DNA of 38,077 nucleotides. Source: Flavobacteriales bacterium (GTDB taxonomy: Bacteria > Bacteroidota > Bacteroidia > Flavobacteriales_F > PHOS-HE28). The position numbers were made by a program, and so were the translations under genes. Positions 6,224 through 19,656 of the stretch are shown here, piece by piece. Under the pieces are notes generated by a model that ran no database searches, was not told the origin of the DNA, and saw nothing but the letters and a program-made list of their open reading frames with translations. The stretch is taken from assembly GCA_016787995.1 (NCBI GenBank), contig JAEUTB010000149.1, positions 1-38,077 on the forward strand, given 5' to 3'. Within the stretch, counting starts at the first letter, position 1. Every line of letters starts with the position of its first letter.

Positions 6224-6237
6224 GTTCCACGTGGAAC
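6224..6237. other. parS-like centromere site 1
   Basis: This is the perfect 14-bp palindrome GTTCCACGTGGAAC, in 16-base context GGTTCCACGTGGAACA. The general bacterial parS is TGTTTCACGTGAAACA, and the TTCCACGTGGAA form is a known parS variant. The site ends 7 bp before the mnmG start codon. ParB binding is inferred from sequence and clustering. Confidence 0.75.
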
Positions 6238-6244
6238 ATGAACG

Positions 6245-8119
6245 ATGGAAGAGGTCTATGATGTGATCGTGGTCGGTGCTGGCCATGCCGGTAACGAGGC
6301 AGCCGCTGCGGCCGCCAACATGGGTTCGAAAGTCCTGCTCATTACCATGAACATGGGCGTGATCGGGCAGATGAGCTGTAACCCCGCCATGGGTGGGGTG
6401 GCCAAAGGACAGATCGTTCGTGAGGTGGACGCGCTTGGTGGGTACTCCGGTATCGTCACCGACCGCAGCACGGTCCAGTTCCGGATGCTTAACCGCAGCA
6501 AGGGACCAGCCATGTGGAGCCCACGCGCACAGAACGACCGCGCCCTCTTCGCCAACGAGTGGCGCCGCCTTCTTGAGTCCACCCCTAACGTTCACTTCTG
6601 GCAGGACAGCGTCAACGAGATCATCATCGTAAACGGAGCGGTCGCAGGTGTGCGCACAGGTCTCGGCAAAACGATCCGTGCACGCGCCGTGGTGCTCACC
6701 AGCGGCACCTTCATGAACGGTATCATGCACATCGGAGAGAAGCAGCTAGGCGGTGGACGGGCAGGCGAAAAGGCCAGCCACGGGATCACTGAACAGTTGG
6801 TGCGCCTCGGCTTCGAAGCAGGACGCATGAAGACAGGAACACCTCCACGAGTGGATGGGCGGAGTATCGACTATAGCCATCTGGAAGAACAACCCGGCGA
6901 CACCACACCTGGCAAGTTCAGCTTCCTGCCATCCACTCGCCCACCATCACGCCAGCTCTCCTGCTGGATGACCTACACCAGTCCCGAAGTACACGAGATC
7001 CTTCGAACAGGTTTCGACCGTAGCCCGATGTTCAACGGACGCATCCGTGGCCTGGGCCCACGCTATTGTCCAAGCATCGAAGACAAGATCGACCGGTTCG
7101 CAGACAAAGACCGCCACCAGATCTTCGTGGAGCCAGAAGGATGGGATACCGTTGAGACTTACATCAATGGCTTCAGCACAAGCCTGCCTGAGGAGGTACA
7201 GGTCGAAGCTCTTCGCCGCATACCGGGATTCGCAAATGCTCGAATGTTCCGTCCTGGGTATGCGGTCGAATATGACTACTTCCCCCCCACCCAGCTCAAG
7301 CATAGCTTGGAGACGAAGCTCGTCGATGGACTGTACTTCGCTGGACAGATCAATGGCACAACCGGGTACGAAGAGGCTGCTTGCCAGGGTCTGATCGCGG
7401 GCATCAATGCTCATCTCAAACTGCAGGAAGAGGAAGCCTTCGTTCTCCGAAGGGACGAGGCCTACATCGGTGTGCTCATCGATGATCTGATCACCAAGGG
7501 CACGGAAGAGCCCTATAGAATGTTCACCAGTCGAGCAGAATTCCGCATTCTACTGCGCCAGGATAATGCCGACCTCCGACTGACCTCCCGCGCATTTGAT
7601 ATTGGACTCGCTTCGCCAGAGCGTATGGATAGGGTGTCCCGGAAGAAGGACCTCTCGGAAGCCTTGGTGGGCGCACTAAGAGCAGAAAGCGTGTCACCAG
7701 AGGCCGCAAATGAACTGATCGTTCCACGTGGAACAACCCCCATAAAGCAGAAGGTAAAGCTCTACGACATTCTCCTGCGACCGCAGATAAACTTCTCCGA
7801 TATCGCACCACTATCCAGTGCGTCTCATTCCATTCTGAGTGATGCCGGTGACTTACAGCATGAGGTCCTTGAGCAGGTCGAGATCAACGTGAAGTACGAA
7901 GGTTACCTCGAAAAAGAGCGCGAAATGGCGGAGAAACTGAGCCGCTTGGAGGAGGTGCCCCTTGACTTGGAGCTCGACTATTCGAGGCTTACCTCGCTCT
8001 CGATCGAGGCGCGCCAGAAGTTGGATCGCATTCGTCCGAATACCCTGGGCCAGGCTTCCCGAATCAGCGGGGTTTCACCAGCGGACCTCACTGTATTGAT
8101 GGTCTACTTGGGACGCTGA
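6245..8119 (+). CDS. mnmG: tRNA uridine-5-carboxymethylaminomethyl modification enzyme MnmG (GidA)
   Basis: MnmG is the FAD- and NADH-dependent partner of MnmE, installing the (carboxymethyl)aminomethyl group at wobble U34 of certain tRNAs in the cytosol. The 624 residues match the family. The FAD dinucleotide motif is [12 protein letters not shown] near residues 9-20, followed by the signature region [24 protein letters not shown] and the conserved [16 protein letters not shown] near residue 370. The C-terminal helical domain for MnmE and tRNA contact includes [15 protein letters not shown] -7 box lies at 6148. One parS-like palindrome sits in its leader, one inside the gene (7721, encoding VPRGT) and one 361 bp after its stop. 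In many bacteria gidA lies close to the replication origin. Confidence 0.97.
7721..7734. other. parS-like centromere site 2 (inside mnmG)
   Basis: A second perfect GTTCCACGTGGAAC occurs in context CGTTCCACGTGGAACA. It is read in frame as Val-Pro-Arg-Gly-Thr of MnmG, so it is embedded in a conserved gene. Its identity with the sites at 6224 and 8480 argues against chance. Confidence 0.75.
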
Positions 8120-8479
8120 CCGCCGCTTTACTCTCTCAACAAAAGGTCTTGTGGCTTACAGCCCCAGAGACTGCTTGGCTGCGGCGTATAGCGCTGTAGG
8201 CGCACTACGATAAGCAGGAATCGGCATGGATACATTTCCATAAACCTGCTTGATACCTGGGACGGTAAAAAGATTCTCCGTTAGTATACACCCCCTTCTG
8301 CTCCTGCTCCAGTCACCGTCGAGTGGGACTTGAACCACAATTCGACCTGTTGCGGGCATAGCCTCCTGATCCATGAATGTGCCCTACATAGCACTAGAGC
8401 ACCATTCGACAAGAAACTAGACCACGAGCCGCCATCGATGCTGATCGCTCCATTAGGAAAGAACTACTTCGTTGCGATC

Positions 8480-8493
8480 GTTCCACGTGGAAC
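8480..8493. other. parS-like centromere site 3
   Basis: A third perfect GTTCCACGTGGAAC lies in context CGTTCCACGTGGAACA, the same 16-mer as site 2. It sits in the noncoding interval, 746 bp after site 2. Confidence 0.75.
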
Positions 8494-8513
8494 ATTAAGG
8501 TTATCAACCATCT

Positions 8514-8542
8514 ATCCACGATCATCGCTAACAATCGTGGAT
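8514..8542. repeat. inverted repeat of DnaA-box-like 9-mers
   Basis: ATCCACGAT (8514-8522) and ATCGTGGAT (8534-8542) form a perfect 9-bp inverted repeat around 11 bases, 20 bp after parS-like site 3. Each arm contains ATCCAC, the core of a DnaA box, but the full 9-mers (CTATCCACG and TGATCCACG) deviate from TTATCCACA at two positions. It could also be a hairpin or operator. Confidence 0.45.
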
Positions 8543-8961
8543 CACTACGCTTTCGCGAGTAGCTTGACAAGACAGATGGACTGGTCTCTAGCAAATGACC
8601 TGCGGCAGTGCATGCCCCACCAAAAGAACTTAACGCAGGTCGATCGGTGTCCGCAATATCCTATCCAACCAGCAAAAACACCCGTATCAGCTTGGGCATC
8701 AATTGCACCTCTACCAACTTACAAGGGCACCGCACATCACAAAAAAACCAACATTGCCCAGGAAGGGCCTAGACACCCCTTCTCCGAGCCCTTGGGGGTA
8801 ATATGGAGGTCGGAGTATCCAGGGCCAGCGATCGCGCGCCTGGCCGCAATTCTAGAGGCCTTACTATTCCTTTGATTTTCAATGCATTAGGGCCCTTCCA
8901 CCGCTTTGCCCGGTCTTTTGGGCCAGCCGGACAGCTACATTCCAACTGGGACTTTCATCAC

Positions 8962-8992
8962 TTGATCGGCCGGTGAACTGCGCTTACCTTTG
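8962..8992 (+). promoter_or_regulatory. promoter of the ALDH7 dehydrogenase gene
   Basis: A -33 TTG (8962-8964) and an exact -7 box TACCTTTG (8985-8992) are separated by 20 bp, the classical Bacteroidota arrangement. The box ends 20 bp before the ATG at 9013. Confidence 0.65.
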
Positions 8993-9012
8993 CGGCCCCA
9001 AAAATCATCCTC

Positions 9013-10572
9013 ATGATCTCTGCCCAGACCGCGACCGATCGGATAGCAGCAACGCTAAGGAACCTTGGAGTGGACCAGACCACTTCCGGTGTAAGCACGG
9101 GAAACACATGGGCGAAGGGCCAAGGTGAAACGCTCGAGAGCTACAGCCCGGTGGATGGGGCGCTCATTGGCACCATTAGGTCCGCCTCCAAAGCAGAATA
9201 TGAGGCCGCTGTACTTGCTGCCCAAACAGCCTACCTGGAGTGGCGCACGTGGCCAGCACCCAAGCGCGGTGAAGTGGTCCGCCAATTCGGGGAGGCTTTG
9301 CGCCAACACAAGGCGGACCTCGGAAAGCTGGTCAGCTATGAAATGGGCAAGAGCTACCAGGAAGGCCTCGGTGAGGTGCAGGAGATGATCGACATCTGTG
9401 ACTTTGCTGTTGGTCTTTCCCGCCAGTTGCACGGACTTACGATGCACAGCGAACGTCCGGACCATCGCATGTATGAGCAGTGGCATCCCATCGGACTTGT
9501 CGGCATCATCAGTGCATTCAACTTCCCCGTGGCTGTTTGGAGTTGGAACACCGCGCTGGCTTGGGTCTGCGGCGATGTTTGTCTTTGGAAACCCAGCGAA
9601 AAGGCCCCTCTGTGCAGCGTGGCTTGTCAGCACATCATCGCCGAGGTGTTCGAACGCAACGGGGTTCCCGAAGGGGTTTCCGTGCTCATCAATGGCGGCC
9701 GGGAAATAGGGGAGTGGATGAGCCACGACGAACGCATCCCGTTGGTCAGCGCCACCGGAAGCACGCGGATGGGCAAAGCCGTAGGTGCGGCGGTCGGTCA
9801 GCGGTTGGGACGCTCCCTCCTGGAACTAGGCGGCAATAACGCGATCATCATCAGCGACAAAGCGGACCTCGATATGTCCTTGATCGGATGCGTCTTCGGA
9901 GCCGTGGGGACCGCTGGTCAACGCTGCACCTCGACAAGGCGCCTGATCATCCATGATTCGGTGTACGAGGCATTCAAGCAGAAGCTGGTCAAGGCCTACG
10001 GTCAATTGCGCATCGGCGATCCATTGGATGAAAGCAACCACGTTGGACCACTGATCGATGCACAGGCCGTGGCCACCTACCAAAAGGCCCTGAAGGCGGC
10101 CGTTGATCAAGGGGCAACCCTGCTCGTGGAGGGGGGGCTGGTCTCCGGCCCCGGCTATGAAAGCGGCTGCTATGTGAAGCCGGCCATCGTTGAAGCGGAA
10201 CCGGACATGCGCATCGTGCAGGAGGAAACCTTCGCGCCGATCCTCTATCTCTTGCGGTACAGCGGTGGTGTCCACGAAGCCATCGCCATCCAGAACGGGG
10301 TAAAGCAAGGGCTCAGCAGCGCGATCATGACGCTTGACCTTCGCGAAGCAGAACGCTTCTTGAGCGCCGCGGGAAGCGATTGTGGCATCGCCAACGTGAA
10401 CATCGGCACCAGTGGAGCGGAGATCGGCGGTGCGTTCGGTGGGGAGAAGGAGACCGGAGGGGGTCGTGAAAGCGGCAGCGACGCTTGGAAGGCCTATATG
10501 CGCCGACAAACGAACACGATCAACTACGGCACCAAACTTCCGCTGGCACAGGGCATCAAGTTCGACCTGTAG
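9013..10572 (+). CDS. aldehyde dehydrogenase, ALDH7 / aminoadipate-semialdehyde dehydrogenase type
   Basis: This 519-residue NAD-dependent aldehyde dehydrogenase belongs to the ALDH7A1 (antiquitin) branch, which oxidises alpha-aminoadipate semialdehyde in lysine breakdown. The resemblance is long and specific: EVQEMIDICDFAVGLSRQLH, then GIISAFNFPVAVWSWNTALAW. The general base Glu271 sits in LLELGGNN, and the nucleophile Cys305 in GTAGQRCTSTRR. The C-terminal GGAFGGEKETGGGRESGSD contributes to the ALDH7 substrate pocket. It is cytosolic, with no signal peptide. A canonical promoter precedes it and no other lysine-catabolic gene is adjacent, so it appears to be a single-gene unit. Other semialdehyde substrates cannot be excluded. 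Confidence 0.93.
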   Translation: MISAQTATDRIAATLRNLGVDQTTSGVSTGNTWAKGQGETLESYSPVDGALIGTIRSASKAEYEAAVLAAQTAYLEWRTWPAPKRGEVVRQFGEALRQHKADLGKLVSYEMGKSYQEGLGEVQEMIDICDFAVGLSRQLHGLTMHSERPDHRMYEQWHPIGLVGIISAFNFPVAVWSWNTALAWVCGDVCLWKPSEKAPLCSVACQHIIAEVFERNGVPEGVSVLINGGREIGEWMSHDERIPLVSATGSTRMGKAVGAAVGQRLGRSLLELGGNNAIIISDKADLDMSLIGCVFGAVGTAGQRCTSTRRLIIHDSVYEAFKQKLVKAYGQLRIGDPLDESNHVGPLIDAQAVATYQKALKAAVDQGATLLVEGGLVSGPGYESGCYVKPAIVEAEPDMRIVQEETFAPILYLLRYSGGVHEAIAIQNGVKQGLSSAIMTLDLREAERFLSAAGSDCGIANVNIGTSGAEIGGAFGGEKETGGGRESGSDAWKAYMRRQTNTINYGTKLPLAQGIKFDL

Positions 10573-13870: not shown

Positions 13871-13889
13871 GATCGATCAAGATGGGTCG

Positions 13890-13897
13890 CAAAGATA
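13890..13897 (-). promoter_or_regulatory. -7 box of the rpiB operon
   Basis: On the minus strand this reads TATCTTTG, an exact TAnnTTTG, 20 bp before the rpiB ATG. No clear -33 TTG was found. Confidence 0.5.
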
Positions 13898-14200
13898 CCG
13901 TAAGGGCGATCTGACGATCGGATCGTTGGATCGCGTTCGCAGGTGTGGATATCCAGGGGTAACATTCCGGTAGTGTGAATAACGCCTGCCGCCTTAACAA
14001 GAAGGAGCGGATCTCCAAATCGGGTTGTCGATCGATCTGCACCGGAAACCCACGATCAGCAAGCCAGGAATGGTCGTTCTCTTTTCAACATCGGTAGAAC
14101 GGATCTGTCATCAACGATCGTTCATACCGAGCAAGAAGTACCTGAACACGAAAGTGATGCGAACTTCGCTCCTTATCGGGATCGTTCATCAACGGTGCGC

Positions 14201-14208
14201 TAATTTTG
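14201..14208 (+). promoter_or_regulatory. -7 box of the MORN-repeat gene
   Basis: TAATTTTG is an exact TAnnTTTG box inside the 430-bp gene-free stretch 13871-14303. It implies a leader of about 90 bases before ATG 14304. Apart from this, the rpiB box and the palindrome at 14277, nothing else was recognised in the stretch. Confidence 0.45.
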
Positions 14209-14276
14209 ATAACCGGAACCCGCAAGTCGCCGGGCATTCGATCATCAACAGATCCAACCGACCATACTATATCATC

Positions 14277-14291
14277 AACCTTTTAAAGGTT
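14277..14291. repeat. 15-bp palindrome just before the MORN-repeat gene
   Basis: AACCTTT-T-AAAGGTT is a perfect 7-bp inverted repeat around one base, 12 bp before ATG 14304. It lies downstream of the candidate -7 box, so it could be an operator or could affect translation. Confidence 0.4.
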
Positions 14292-14303
14292 AAACAGAAA
14301 TAC

Positions 14304-15836
14304 ATGAAGAGTTGGTTGAAGACGTTGGTCGTAGTGCTTGCATGCCTTCAAGCTGTGTTCGGTGCAGCACAGACGGATAGCCTGCATCGCTATTACCATC
14401 CGAACGGGCAGGTGGCCAGCGAAGGTGCCTTGATCAATGGTAAACCCGAAGGGCAATGGCGCAATTATTACGATACGGGGGTTCTCCGCAGTGAGGGTGT
14501 CAGACGCGAGCTCTTATTGGAAGGCGTGTGGAAGTTCTACGACACGAAAGGAAGACTGGCCAGCTCGATCACCTATATGGGCGACAAGAAGAACGGGCCT
14601 GCGCTGAAGTACGATTCCACGGGAGTTCTGCTGGCAGAAGAAGTGTTCGTGGATGACCTTCGGGAAGGCGTGGCCAAGTACTACCATGTCAATGGGGTGC
14701 TGCATAAGGAGGTTCCTTTCAAAGCCGGCAAAGAAGAGGGTAGGGGTTACGAGTATGCCGAGGATGGGCGCATCATCTCCTTGCTGCAATATGGTGCGGG
14801 TCTGTTGCGCAAGCGTGAGGATATCAACCGTGTGGACGCCATGGGTCTGAAACAAGGCCCATGGAAAGAGTTCCATGCGAACGGAAAGGTCAAGTGGGAA
14901 GGTACTTACGTGGATGGTGAGCGCCAGGGTCTTTTCAAGGAGTACGATGCGCGTGGAAGTCTGAAGGACATGGTGAAGTTCGATAACGGGGTGAAGGACG
15001 AACAGGCTTCCCAAGCACAGATGCTGGACATCAAACGCACGTACCACCCCAACGGTAAGGTGGCCAGTATGGGCAGTTACTCCAGGACAGGCAAGAAGGA
15101 GGGGCTCTTCCGCGATTTCAATGAGAAGGGAGAGGCCACAACGGCTAGCATTTACGCCAGTGATCAACTACTGAGTCAGGGAACCGTGAATGATGTAGGT
15201 GCCTTGGAAGGCGAGTGGACCGAATTCTACATCACCGGCGAGAAGCGTGCACAAGGAAGCTACAAGGCAGGCAAGAAAGAAGGGGATTGGACCTTTTTCC
15301 ACCGCGCTGGTGGCGTAGAGCAGAAAGGCAAGTACCAGAACGGCCTACCGCAGGGGACCTGGGTCTGGTACTATGAGGACGGCAAGAAACACCGCGAGGA
15401 GCTCTACCGGAAAGGCAAGGAGGATGGAGCATCCGTGGAATATGACGAGGAGGGCAATGTGATCGTTCAGGGTGACTACATCGACGGCCTAAAGGACGGT
15501 AAGTGGTTCTACAAGGTCGGCGACCACCAGGAAGAAGGAGTGTACAAGGACGATCTGAAGGATGGCGAGTGGGTGTACACCTACGACAACGGGAAGAAGT
15601 ACTTCGTGGGTTCGTTCCTGAACGGAGAGCCCAATGGCAAACACAAATGGTATCATCCCAATGGCCAGTTGAAACTGGAAGGGAGGTATAGCCTCGGACT
15701 GGAACAAGGTGATCACATCCACTACAACGAACAGGGTATCCCCGTCACCGTGGTGAAGTTCAAGGATGGTGCGGAGATCAAGATCGATGGGGAGCGTATA
15801 CCCGCACCGTATACGATAGACGATATCACTCCTTGA
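14304..15836 (+). CDS. secreted MORN_2/YwqK-type repeat protein
   Basis: The product is a 510-residue exported protein built almost entirely of tandem repeats of roughly 23 residues. Typical units are YYHPNGQVASEGALINGKPE, then FHANGKVKWEGTYVDGERQG and YHPNGQLKLEGRYSLGLEQG. This is the MORN_2 repeat pattern that databases label YwqK-family antitoxin, although no toxin gene is nearby and that label should not be taken as function. I chose ATG 14304 because it starts a signal peptide (MKSWLKTLVVVLACLQAVFGAAQ); the open frame upstream is noncoding. It is followed after 34 bp by the histidine kinase on the same strand. A surface or periplasmic binding or scaffold role is a guess. Confidence 0.85.
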   Translation: MKSWLKTLVVVLACLQAVFGAAQTDSLHRYYHPNGQVASEGALINGKPEGQWRNYYDTGVLRSEGVRRELLLEGVWKFYDTKGRLASSITYMGDKKNGPALKYDSTGVLLAEEVFVDDLREGVAKYYHVNGVLHKEVPFKAGKEEGRGYEYAEDGRIISLLQYGAGLLRKREDINRVDAMGLKQGPWKEFHANGKVKWEGTYVDGERQGLFKEYDARGSLKDMVKFDNGVKDEQASQAQMLDIKRTYHPNGKVASMGSYSRTGKKEGLFRDFNEKGEATTASIYASDQLLSQGTVNDVGALEGEWTEFYITGEKRAQGSYKAGKKEGDWTFFHRAGGVEQKGKYQNGLPQGTWVWYYEDGKKHREELYRKGKEDGASVEYDEEGNVIVQGDYIDGLKDGKWFYKVGDHQEEGVYKDDLKDGEWVYTYDNGKKYFVGSFLNGEPNGKHKWYHPNGQLKLEGRYSLGLEQGDHIHYNEQGIPVTVVKFKDGAEIKIDGERIPAPYTIDDITP

Positions 15837-15870: not shown

Positions 15871-18800
15871 ATGGTAGGCAAGGGAGGGCCTGGAGGAGCC
15901 CCAGCGGTGCAACATTCCATGGAGCAGGCGTACGCTGAATTGCAGCGGCAGTACGAGCAGCTGGTGAGCAGGAATCTGGCGGGTGTCTACCGTACTACCA
16001 TGGATGGCCGATTCCTGGAGTGCAATGATGCGTTGGCGAGGATACTGGGGTATTCCGACCGTAACGAACTGCTGTGCTCTCAAGCGCTTTCCATCTATCC
16101 TACTGCGGCCGACCGCGAGCGTTTCCTCCAGGACCTTCTGCGGGAAAAACAACTGATCAACTACGAGCTGTCCCTGAAACACAGGAACGGGAGGCTGGTG
16201 GATGTACTGGAGAACGTGTTCCTCGATGTCATGGAGGATGGTACGGCCACCATTCAAGGGACCTTGATCGACATCACCGCGATCAAGCAGGCCGAAATGG
16301 AGCAAACCTCGCTCACCGCCAGCTACCGAAGTCTGGTGGAGCACATGCGCGATGGGGTAATGGTGGTGCGCGACGGAAGGATACACTACGCGAACCCTGC
16401 CGCACAGCGCCTGATGGGACAGCCTCTGATCGGTATGGACTTGTCTGGATCGTTCGCTGAAGCCGATGCACGGGCGGTGCAGGAAATGGTCAAGGCATCT
16501 GGCTCGGAACCCGCTTCAGCGCCCCTGATCGTTCGATCGCGCAACGATAGCACGTCCGAGGTCGGGCTCTATGCCACGAAAGCCCTCTTCGAGGGCGCCT
16601 CGGCCGTTCAGGTCACCATCCAGGACGAACAAGCCAGACAGAACCTGCTTCGTGAGCGGCTACGGGTGCAAATGGCCGAAGAGGTGAACCAGGTGCTGCG
16701 CCAAGAGATCGAAGAGCACAGACGCACTCAGGACGCCTTGCGTCGGTCCAGACAATTCGCCCGCAGCCTGGTCGACAGCTCGCTGGATATGATCATGGCC
16801 GCCGACCCGGAGGGTTTGATCACCGAATACAATCCAGCGGCCCAAATGCGCTTTGGTTATGAAGCACATGAGGTGATGGGTACCAGCACCAACAAGCTGT
16901 ATGCGGACCCAACCGAGTATGCGCGGATCCAACACGAGCTCAATACCTACGGTGCTTTCACTGGTGAGGTGCGCAACGTGACGAAGGATGGTGAGGTTTT
17001 CACCTCATTCCTCGCTGCTTCGCGCCTCTTCGATGAGGATGGACAATTCCTTGGCGCCATGGGCGTGTCGCGGGATATCACCCGCATGAAGCAGGACCGC
17101 GAAGCGTTGCAAGCCAGCGAAGAGCGCTACCGCGACCTGTTCGAGAACGCCACCGACCTGATCCAAAGCGTGGATCCCGAGGGTCGCTTCCAGTACGTGA
17201 ACACGGCTTGGAGGCGTGCCTTGGGTTATATGGAGCGGGAGGTGGGGTCCCTTCGGTTGAAGGATGTGGTGCATCCTCTTCATCTGGAGGCGTACGAAGA
17301 ACGCCACGCACGTGTCATGGCGGGAGAAACGGTCGAACGCATCCGTACGGTGTTCGTGGGCAAACAGGGCCAAGAGGTACACGTGGAAGGCACCACCAAC
17401 CTGCGCAGTGTGGATGGAAAGCCGGTGGCCACCCGAAGCATATTCACCGATATGACCCACGTGGACGCCGCCCGGGCCAAAGTCCAGGAGCACGAAGCCA
17501 AATTGCGTGCGCTGTTCGAAAGCAGCGAACACATGTTCTGGACGGTGGACCCGCAGATCAAACTCACCTCCTACAACCGCGGGTATAGCGACATGATCGA
17601 ACGGCTGCATGGCAAGCGACCGGAGATCAATACGGACCCCACAAAGCCCAGGGCGCTCTTCGCCTCCACGGAATACCATGCGTTCTGGGAGGAGAAGTAC
17701 AGCCACGCGTTCAAAGGCAAGCCCATGCGCTTCGAGACCGATCGCGTGGATCAACATGGGCGCCGGGTCTGTAATGAGATCTTCCTGAGCCCGGTGTTCG
17801 GCTCGGATGGTCAGGTGACGGAAGTCTTCGGTGTAGGCCACGAGATCACCGAACAAAAGCTGGCCGAGGACCTCGTGCGACACCAAGCCGCGAGGATCAA
17901 AGCCATCTTCGAGAATGCCGCGAACGTGATGATCTGGACCTTGAACAAGGACTTCCGGATCACCTCCTTCAACGAGCACTTCCTGCGAACCACGGACCGC
18001 CGGCTCGGCATCCAGTTCAAAGACGGGGATGACTTCATCGGCACCATGCGGGAGCGCGTGGCCAGTGGTGCCGCCGAACCAGCGATCGCGCAGTTCAAGG
18101 CAGCGCTTAAGGGCGCACCGCAACAATTCGAGGTGGAACTGCGCGGTGACGAAGGCCGATCGGTCTGGGTCGAGTGCTTCCTCAACCCTATCGCGGGGGA
18201 CAAGGGCGTGAAGGAGATCTCGTGCATGGCCTATGGCATCACCGACCGGAAGGAGGCGGAATTGAAGCTCCGCCAAAGCCTTGGGGAGAAGGAGGTATTG
18301 CTGAAGGAGGTGCATCACCGCGTGAAGAACAACCTCCAGGTGATCAGCAGCATCCTGAGCCTGCAGACCGCCCATGTGGATGGTGATGAGCGCATTCTGG
18401 AGCTCTTGCGCGTGAGCCGAGACCGCATCCGCAGCATGTCCTTCATCCACGAAAGCCTCTATCAGAACAAGGATTTCAGCTCCATCGATCTCGGCAGCTA
18501 CATCGATGGGCTCAGCCGGAACCTTGTGATGAGCTATAGCCTTACGGGCAATATCGCTTTGGAGCGCGATCTTAAACGGGTCGAGCTGGTCCTGGACCAA
18601 GCCATACCCTGCGGGCTCATCCTCAACGAGCTCATCAGCAATGCCTTCAAACACGCGTTCCCCGGAGGACGGGCCGGGGTGGTCCGGATCGGATTGAACC
18701 TTCAGGGGGAACAGGTGTCCATCACCGTTCAGGACGATGGTGTGGGCCTTCCGGAAGGCTTCAGCGCGAAGAACGACGGCAACCTCGGACTCGAACTCGT

Positions 18801-18891
18801 ACGGACCCTGGTGGATCAACTGGACGGAAAGCTGGAGGTGAAGACTGGCGCAGGCGTCGCCTATTTGCTTACCTTTGAACGTTACCGATAG
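15871..18891 (+). CDS. soluble multi-PAS sensor histidine kinase (HisKA_2 type)
   Basis: This 1006-residue kinase has no signal peptide or membrane helix, so it should sense cytoplasmic cues. About six PAS-like modules can be read: roughly 30-145, 150-255, 295-410, 415-540, 540-665 and 665-795, with a charged coiled coil at 255-295. The dimerisation/phosphotransfer segment is [20 protein letters not shown], with His815 the likely phosphoacceptor, marking the HisKA_2 (LytS-like cytosolic) class. The HATPase follows with N-box [13 protein letters not shown]1 DDGVGLP, and [10 protein letters not shown]. The LytTR response regulator starts three bases after its stop and is its obvious partner. 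ATG 15871 is used; an internal Met at 15919 is an alternative start. Confidence 0.93.
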
Positions 18892-18894
18892 AAC

Positions 18895-19656
18895 ATGGCG
18901 CAGACGAATGTCCTCGTAGTCGAGGACGAGAGCATCGTAAGCAAGGACATCCAACACAGCCTGAAGAAACTCGGGTACAACGTGGTGGGTGCGGCCAACA
19001 ATGGGGAAACGGCGGTCAGCCTTGCGCTGGAGCATCAGCCGGACATCATCCTCATGGACATCATGCTCAAGGGCGAGATGAACGGTATAGAGGCCGCTGA
19101 TGCCATCCGCAAGGAAACGAACATCCCGGTCATCTTCCTCACGGCCTACGCCGACGAAAGCACCTTGGCCAAAGCCAAAGTGACCCAGCCCTACGGGTAC
19201 ATCATCAAGCCGTTCAAGGAGATCGACATCCACACGTCGATCGAGATGGCGCTGTACAAGCACAAGAAGGAGACCGAAGTGCTGAAGGAGCGCGACCTGC
19301 TCTATTCCCTCGTGGAGAACAAGGAGGCCGCCGGTGCGCGCGACATCATGTTCGTGAAGAGCAACAGCCGCTTGGTGAAGCTGAAGACCAGCGACATCTA
19401 CTTCATCGAAGCGCTGAAGGATTACGTGGTGATCAATACGCTGAACACCCGTTACACCGTGCACAGCACCATGAAGGACATCGAGGCGAAGCTGCCCGAG
19501 GCCGACTTCATTCGCGTGCACCGCAGCTTCATCGTGCGTCTCGATAAGATCGTGGCCATCGAACAGCCCAACCTGATCCTGGAGAACGATAAGAAGGTGA
19601 TCCCGATCGGTGGTAGCTACAAGGACGATCTGGCGAAGCGCCTGAACCTCGTCTAG
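18895..19656 (+). CDS. LytTR-family response regulator
   Basis: This 253-residue protein pairs a receiver domain (1-120) with a LytTR DNA-binding domain (about 150-250). Acidic residues VEDE at 9-12, phosphoacceptor Asp55 in ILMDIML, Thr in FLTAYAD and Lys in IIKPFKE are all present. The LytTR part shows DIYFIEALKDYVVINT and the FIRVHRSFIVRLDKI signature. It would bind promoter repeats as a dimer when phosphorylated by the kinase encoded three bases upstream. Its targets are not evident; the neighbouring MORN-repeat gene is one candidate because it is on the same strand next to the kinase. Confidence 0.95.
   Translation: MAQTNVLVVEDESIVSKDIQHSLKKLGYNVVGAANNGETAVSLALEHQPDIILMDIMLKGEMNGIEAADAIRKETNIPVIFLTAYADESTLAKAKVTQPYGYIIKPFKEIDIHTSIEMALYKHKKETEVLKERDLLYSLVENKEAAGARDIMFVKSNSRLVKLKTSDIYFIEALKDYVVINTLNTRYTVHSTMKDIEAKLPEADFIRVHRSFIVRLDKIVAIEQPNLILENDKKVIPIGGSYKDDLAKRLNLV

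Follow-up and report, generated by a model that had tools for sequence, protein, structure and literature searches.

Predicted parS centromere sites at the mnmG gene of a Flavobacteriales bacterium and their conservation in the class Bacteroidia

The three palindromes in the window and in the assembly

Three identical palindromes that flank and enter the mnmG (gidA) gene of a Flavobacteriales bacterium are read best, and almost certainly correctly, as a parS centromere cluster, that is, as predicted binding sites of the ParB protein. The window (the whole stretch of DNA analyzed here, 38,077 nucleotides from contig JAEUTB010000149.1) contains the 14-mer GTTCCACGTGGAAC at positions 6224-6237, 7721-7734 and 8480-8493, as established by exact search, and a search with GTTYCACGTGRAAC that allows up to two mismatches recovers these three known sites and no others in the window. 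Across 100 dinucleotide-preserving shuffles of the window, the mean count of the 14-mer is 0.00, and three copies are reached in none. The mnmG gene itself (6245..8119, + strand) encodes a protein of 624 aa that matches the NCBIfam equivalog TIGR00136 (mnmG_gidA) and the PDB entry 3cp8, GidA, with an E-value of 8.9e-209; no strand is assigned to the palindromes or to the intergenic intervals discussed here. Site 1 (6224-6237) belongs to the mnmG leader and ends 7 bases before the ATG at 6245. Site 2 (7721-7734) is located within the gene, in frame, and reads GTT CCA CGT GGA AC(A), which corresponds to residues 493-497, VPRGT. Site 3 (8480-8493) lies 364 bases beyond the last mnmG codon, in the interval 8120-9012 that separates mnmG from the next clear gene, starting at 9013.

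The base 3' of the palindrome is A at all three sites, and CGTTCCACGTGGAACA is common to those at 7720 and 8479. A preliminary description of this DNA, made from the letters alone, had reported three perfect copies and no others in the window, their placement in the leader of mnmG, inside it and in the interval after it, the trailing A and the 16-mer common to two copies; the search confirms each of these points and adds that the internal copy is in frame. The count over the whole assembly (G000; 3,297,107 bases in 271 contigs), which that description had left open, is likewise three exact copies of GTTCCACGTGGAAC, all within 2.3 kb around mnmG, although copies could be absent from this count because the assembly is 73.9% complete. 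Given that these are the only exact copies in the assembly, the 14-mer is not spread evenly around the chromosome. At one mismatch, two extra sites appear, on contigs C16 and C44.

Identity of the palindrome and the partner proteins ParA and ParB

The sequence GTTCCACGTGGAAC is a palindrome close to the parS consensus TGTTTCACGTGAAACA. The identical 14-mer is contained in parS1-4 of Pseudomonas aeruginosa (PMC4368675) and in TGTTCCACGTGGAACG, the parS consensus of Myxococcus xanthus, which was bound by ParB in a gel shift (PMC3899335).

The assembly also encodes the expected partners: on the short contig G000:C1, a gene for a ParA-like ATPase of 271 aa (parA) is directly followed by parB. With the NCBIfam ParA models, no match of the former protein reaches the cut-off, and it is named ParA from its sequence and its place. 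The ParB protein matches solved structures of ParB, Spo0J and Noc in PDB as well as TIGR00180, and contains GKDRTTVTNYLRLLRLP, MGHAR and ISGERRFRA. The last of these includes the GERR motif, which is consistent with CTP binding. Among the genomes of the genus, parB is found in 40 of 45 and in all 30 good ones. The best-scoring NCBIfam match of the G000 ParB is nucleoid_noc, with 224 bits, below the cut-off of 315. An assignment to Noc and its NBS sites is rejected: at the two specificity positions, where the conserved ParB residues are R173 and G201 and those of Noc are Q173 and R201 (Caulobacter numbering; PMC7383237), the G000 protein has R and G (positions transferred by eye), i.e., the parS type.

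Conservation around mnmG in the genus

Exact GTTYCACGTGRAAC sites, 1-5 per genome, are present in 41 of the 45 genus genomes, and the four genomes with zero sites (G001, G034, G035 and G037) likewise lack an mnmG match. The mnmG locus is readable in one piece in 39 genomes; this set leaves out G032, where mnmG is split over two contigs, a second copy of G022, and five genomes without an mnmG match (the four named above and G025, which has one site). In the 39 genomes, 109 of the 110 genome-wide GTTYCACGTGRAAC sites are located at mnmG, between -400 and +1500 bases. Of the three copies, conservation is highest for the one inside mnmG (39/39), followed by the copy up to 1500 bases after the gene (37/39) and the leader copy, up to 400 bases before it (30/39). 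For G009, G024 and G041, with completeness of 99-100%, a search that admits one mismatch places the exact sites at mnmG only. The genus maximum, five parS sites with four located downstream of mnmG, is seen at G027:C87:1688-3099.

In 17 of 20 genus relatives (including L317 and L330), mnmG is followed by an ORF of about 305 aa that by eye resembles a SAM methyltransferase, and site 3 falls in the leader or the first codons of this ORF. The ORF is missing in the window (8120-9012) and in three other loci (L313, L314 and L316), and all four keep site 3, at a distance of 100-580 bases past mnmG. The possibility that site 3 is a control element of the next gene is weakened because these four loci retain the site without the ORF, and the comparison favors a role of site 3 that would be independent of it.

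Frozen codons of the copy inside mnmG

Site 2 reads GTT CCA CGT GGA AC identically in 39 of 39 genus rows, and the base that follows varies (ACA in 34, ACC in 4, ACG in 1). Among 278 degenerate columns with an invariant residue in these 39 rows, the codon is invariant in 6, of which 4 belong to site 2, and none of these four is the commonest codon for its residue. In the invariant-run test, for which three gapped rows were dropped and 36 of the 39 used, the longest invariant run consists of the 14 bases of site 2, with a runner-up of 8. The frozen codons and this record run therefore show that selection acts on the DNA.

The slot varies in other Bacteroidia. Residues 493-497 form the end of helix 485-495 plus the following loop (AlphaFold2 model, block pLDDT 91) and lie outside the conserved columns of 27 proteins, and in 67 other aligned proteins the residues in the same codon slot are mostly unrelated. 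Two lineages outside the genus carry different parS spellings in the identical codon slot: G065, from another family, has GTTTCACGTGAAAC (residues VSRET), and L057, a Cryomorphaceae MAG, has GTTTCACGTGGAAC (residues VSRGT), the palindrome in both cases still being parS. The slot is without a site in G108, which belongs to the family of G065, and in G111 there is a parS in mnmG, at a different place. As read from these alignments, DNA-level selection at site 2 fixes both the codons and the peptide VPRGT in this genus, a clear case of a predicted DNA-binding site determining codons and residues of a protein. In Bacillus subtilis, a parS site is found inside the coding sequence of spo0J (parB); the host gene here is a different one, and the freezing of codons is examined over 39 species.

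Conservation across the class Bacteroidia

The class sample consists of 73 other genomes, 70 of which have an mnmG match (G056, G079 and G101, without a match, were dropped). Exact sites at mnmG are present in 59 of these 70 genomes, representing 46 of 54 families, and account for 115 of the 142 genome-wide sites; the remaining 27 fall outside the zone from -400 to +1500, five of them within the fetched stretch. In the 59 genomes, sites are found before the gene in 37, inside it in 2 and after it in 41. The fetched mnmG stretch contains no exact site in 11 of the 70 genomes, six of which carry exact sites at other genomic positions; the other five lack them genome-wide. One-mismatch sites are located at mnmG in three of the 11 (G053, G086 and G094), and neither exact nor one-mismatch sites are seen in G068 and G103.

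A second sample, 80 named loci picked by MnmG similarity, of which at least five belong to the source genus, shows the same picture: 73 have sites near mnmG, with a density of 188 sites in 310 kb (0.606 per kb) near the gene vs 4 in 1277 kb (0.0031 per kb) in the flanks. In three of the seven loci without an exact site (L048, L073 and L097; Larkinella twice and Dyadobacter), a one-mismatch site lies about 50 bases before mnmG. The comparison of related genomes, suggested in the preliminary description, thus finds the sites kept around mnmG across both genus and class.

The replication origin

In Flavobacterium sp. SLB02, the GC-skew fit (a balanced two-replichore model with 19 readable skew samples, one of the 20 stretches being all N) puts the origin at 5.22-5.29 Mb, and eight exact sites together with mnmG lie at 5.268-5.271 Mb. 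In the genus, the signal is too weak for the skew fit to serve as the sole proof of the origin, and this use of it is rejected. For G009, which is a single contig, the 20-sample fit yields 2.77-2.81 Mb, with 2 of 1000 permutations as good, and the 40-sample fit yields 2.69-2.71 Mb, whereas mnmG is at 2.996 Mb; at mnmG itself, the skew passes from negative to positive over the neighboring 20-kb samples, the one at 3.10 Mb excepted. For G024, the best fit is 2.78-2.89 Mb (score 0.0125), the position of mnmG at 2.52 Mb scores 0.0121, and 10 of 1000 permutations are as good. The permutation counts show a real skew switch in both genomes and do not fix its exact place; the origin is located approximately, within about 0.2-0.4 Mb of mnmG in G009 and G024. 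Mariniflexile and Algorimicrobium also have mnmG as an oriC neighbor according to Ori-Finder and GC skew (PMC11278836, PMC12843772), although in the former source the text and a figure legend contradict each other as to whether oriC or ter is the element at mnmG.

The genes of the partitioning and initiator proteins are located elsewhere. Along the circle, the distances of parB and dnaA from mnmG are about 1.66 and 1.47 Mb in G009, about 1.8 Mb for either gene in G024 (taken as circular), and 0.87 and 1.09 Mb in SLB02. In part of the genus (e.g., G003, G019, G017, G002, G022, G032 and G005), the gap between parB and dnaA is about 4-5 kb, at a place away from mnmG.

Within the window, a 434-base intergenic interval at 13871..14304, 5.4 kb past site 3 and flanked by an rpiB-like ORF (identified by eye) and a MORN-repeat ORF, is a candidate oriC. 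The interval is near the AT-richest stretch of the window (14201-14380), has the local minimum of the cumulative GC skew (13841) at its edge, and contains the densest DnaA-like boxes in the window (5 per 450 bases, with at most 2 elsewhere), the strict box TTWTNCACA occurring once. In 18 of 21 genus loci (the exceptions are L315, L319 and L322), the cumulative skew along the fetched stretch reaches its lowest point 5.2-6.9 kb past mnmG. Alignment of the intergenic intervals from 18 of the 21 loci (L324, L329 and L330 were dropped) reveals 101 matches to TTATCCACA with up to two mismatches vs 22 in shuffles, and 68 matches to TTWTCMACA with one mismatch vs 6 in shuffles, the latter pattern having been picked after viewing the alignment. 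Because local skew minima can also arise from diverging genes, 13871-14304 stays a putative oriC.

Taken together with the GC skew, this candidate supports the proximity of the window to oriC that the preliminary description had proposed, and the lack of parAB and dnaA genes in the window, on which it had remarked, is explained by the remote position of parB and dnaA in the relative G009. The GC skew points to an origin at or near mnmG, strongly in Flavobacterium and weakly in the genus.

An oriC directly beside mnmG is rejected: the strict box TTATYCACA is nearly absent from the first 2.5 kb on either side of the gene in the 80 named loci, and the interval 8120-9012 contains no strict DnaA box. 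A separate box cluster lies 2.55-3.03 kb past mnmG in four of the 80 loci (Larkinella twice, Dyadobacter and Marinigracilibium), and in Chitinophaga solisilvae a box cluster is found 4.6 kb before mnmG. A search for a 9-mer iteron shared near mnmG within the genus gave none, the best 9-mers clustering in 2 of 21 loci only. A few kb from the candidate oriC, the window encodes a large PAS/HisKA_2 sensor kinase and, after it, a LytTR response regulator (15871-19656).

Proposed mechanism and alternative explanations

The best explanation, and very probably the right one, is that a ParABS system uses the palindromes as its chromosomal parS sites, the ParB-coated origin region being moved by ParA and segregated first. 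This explanation rests on the sites themselves, their uniqueness in the assembly, their identity with the parS of other bacteria, conservation in genus and class, the frozen codons, the parA-parB pair and the GC skew, and the parS reading of the preliminary description is upheld on these grounds. By analogy with established ParABS biology, a ParB dimer would occupy each palindrome, the bound ParB would turn into a CTP-dependent clamp that slides over mnmG and its surroundings, and the ParB-coated DNA would be the cargo of ParA; the origin, at a distance of a few kb, would thus be the first region to segregate, just after replication. The centromere of the genus would be about 2 kb long, with its core copy inside mnmG, at a slot that is variable in other Bacteroidia. 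ScpA (PF02616) is found in Litoribacter and in 9 of 14 controls; it is found in none of the five genus genomes searched, nor in Flavobacterium sp. SLB02. Given its absence from the five genus genomes, ParB in this genus probably loads no classical Smc-ScpAB.

A more far-reaching joint reading, which we consider an evenly balanced proposition, is that long-standing selection ties the Bacteroidota centromere to mnmG itself and not merely to the origin neighborhood, as parS stays at the edges of the gene or in frame within it and parB and dnaA moved far away. Under the same proposition, the MnmG slot would be the core centromere site in this genus, such that segregation dictates part of a tRNA-modifying enzyme, and ParB-parS would work without Smc-ScpAB.

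A serious contender, if somewhat short of an even case, is that the sites are indeed parS but owe their seat to old synteny of mnmG with oriC, with no selection for mnmG as such. The gene is an origin neighbor in published Flavobacteriaceae (PMC11278836, PMC12843772), the location of parS near the origin is presented as a general rule in the reviews consulted, the exact sites of six class genomes fall beyond the mnmG stretch that was fetched, and G100 has one of its two sites roughly 27 kb from the gene. However, synteny does not readily account for the clustering of sites only tens of bases from either end of the gene or for the contrast between 188 sites in 310 kb and 4 in 1277 kb; the frozen codons of site 2 are not explained by hitching alone either, although selection for parS anywhere nearby would explain them.

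It is very improbable that the palindromes are primarily operators that control mnmG, via ParB or another factor, with a secondary part in segregation. Site 1 directly precedes the start of mnmG in the window, as do sites in many genomes of the class, and extra ParB represses the promoters adjoining parS3 and parS4 in P. aeruginosa (PMC5521831), but the universal copy sits 1.5 kb inside the gene (39/39, with a leader copy in 30/39), site 3 is kept in four genomes without the ORF that is present there in 17 others, and the 14-mer is a proven ParB site in other bacteria. Finally, a perfect palindrome can have its origin in a terminator or a mobile repeat, but a functionless repeat, hairpin or chance palindrome is hardly conceivable in view of zero chance matches in 100 shuffles, the single place in the assembly, the class-wide conservation and the frozen codons.

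Comparison with known systems

The ParABS system is known; its arrangement at mnmG is unusual. The parS1-4 sites of P. aeruginosa (PMC4368675) resemble those described here in the core GTTCCACGTGGAAC and in forming a small cluster near oriC, but here the sites lie close against mnmG and within it, with parB and dnaA at remote positions in the relatives checked. M. xanthus (PMC3899335) has the same parS core and 22 sites, whereas each genome of this genus with sites has 1-5. In gut bacteria, including two Bacteroidetes (PMC10197239), parS clusters are located at the GC-skew origin, as they are here; that study also notes that the origin is not always at dnaA and that two gut Bacteroidetes strains are without a known condensin, and its relevant passages do not name mnmG or treat codon conservation. 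Mariniflexile and Algorimicrobium share the origin at mnmG, and the corresponding passages (PMC11278836, PMC12843772) do not mention parS. The literature searched, in which subscription journals are mostly uncovered, does not describe an association of parS with mnmG across Bacteroidota or a frozen parS within the gene, and priority is not claimed.

Sites of this kind at mnmG provide a simple mark of the origin region in contigs and MAGs of Bacteroidota where dnaA misleads. They also raise the question why the centromere keeps with one tRNA-modification gene class-wide, unlike parB and dnaA, and point to lineages in which ParB-parS may have to work without Smc-ScpAB.

G077, from another family, has 12 exact parS sites (contigs C24, C28, C40 and C43), seven of which lie on C24 at a spacing of about 98-99 bases, resembling centromere units in a tandem array. 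In Flavobacterium hydatis (L085, 12429-14050), further parS-like sites, all ending in T, are spread from 0.5 to 2.2 kb after mnmG, with a spacing of about 100 bases towards the end of the spread.
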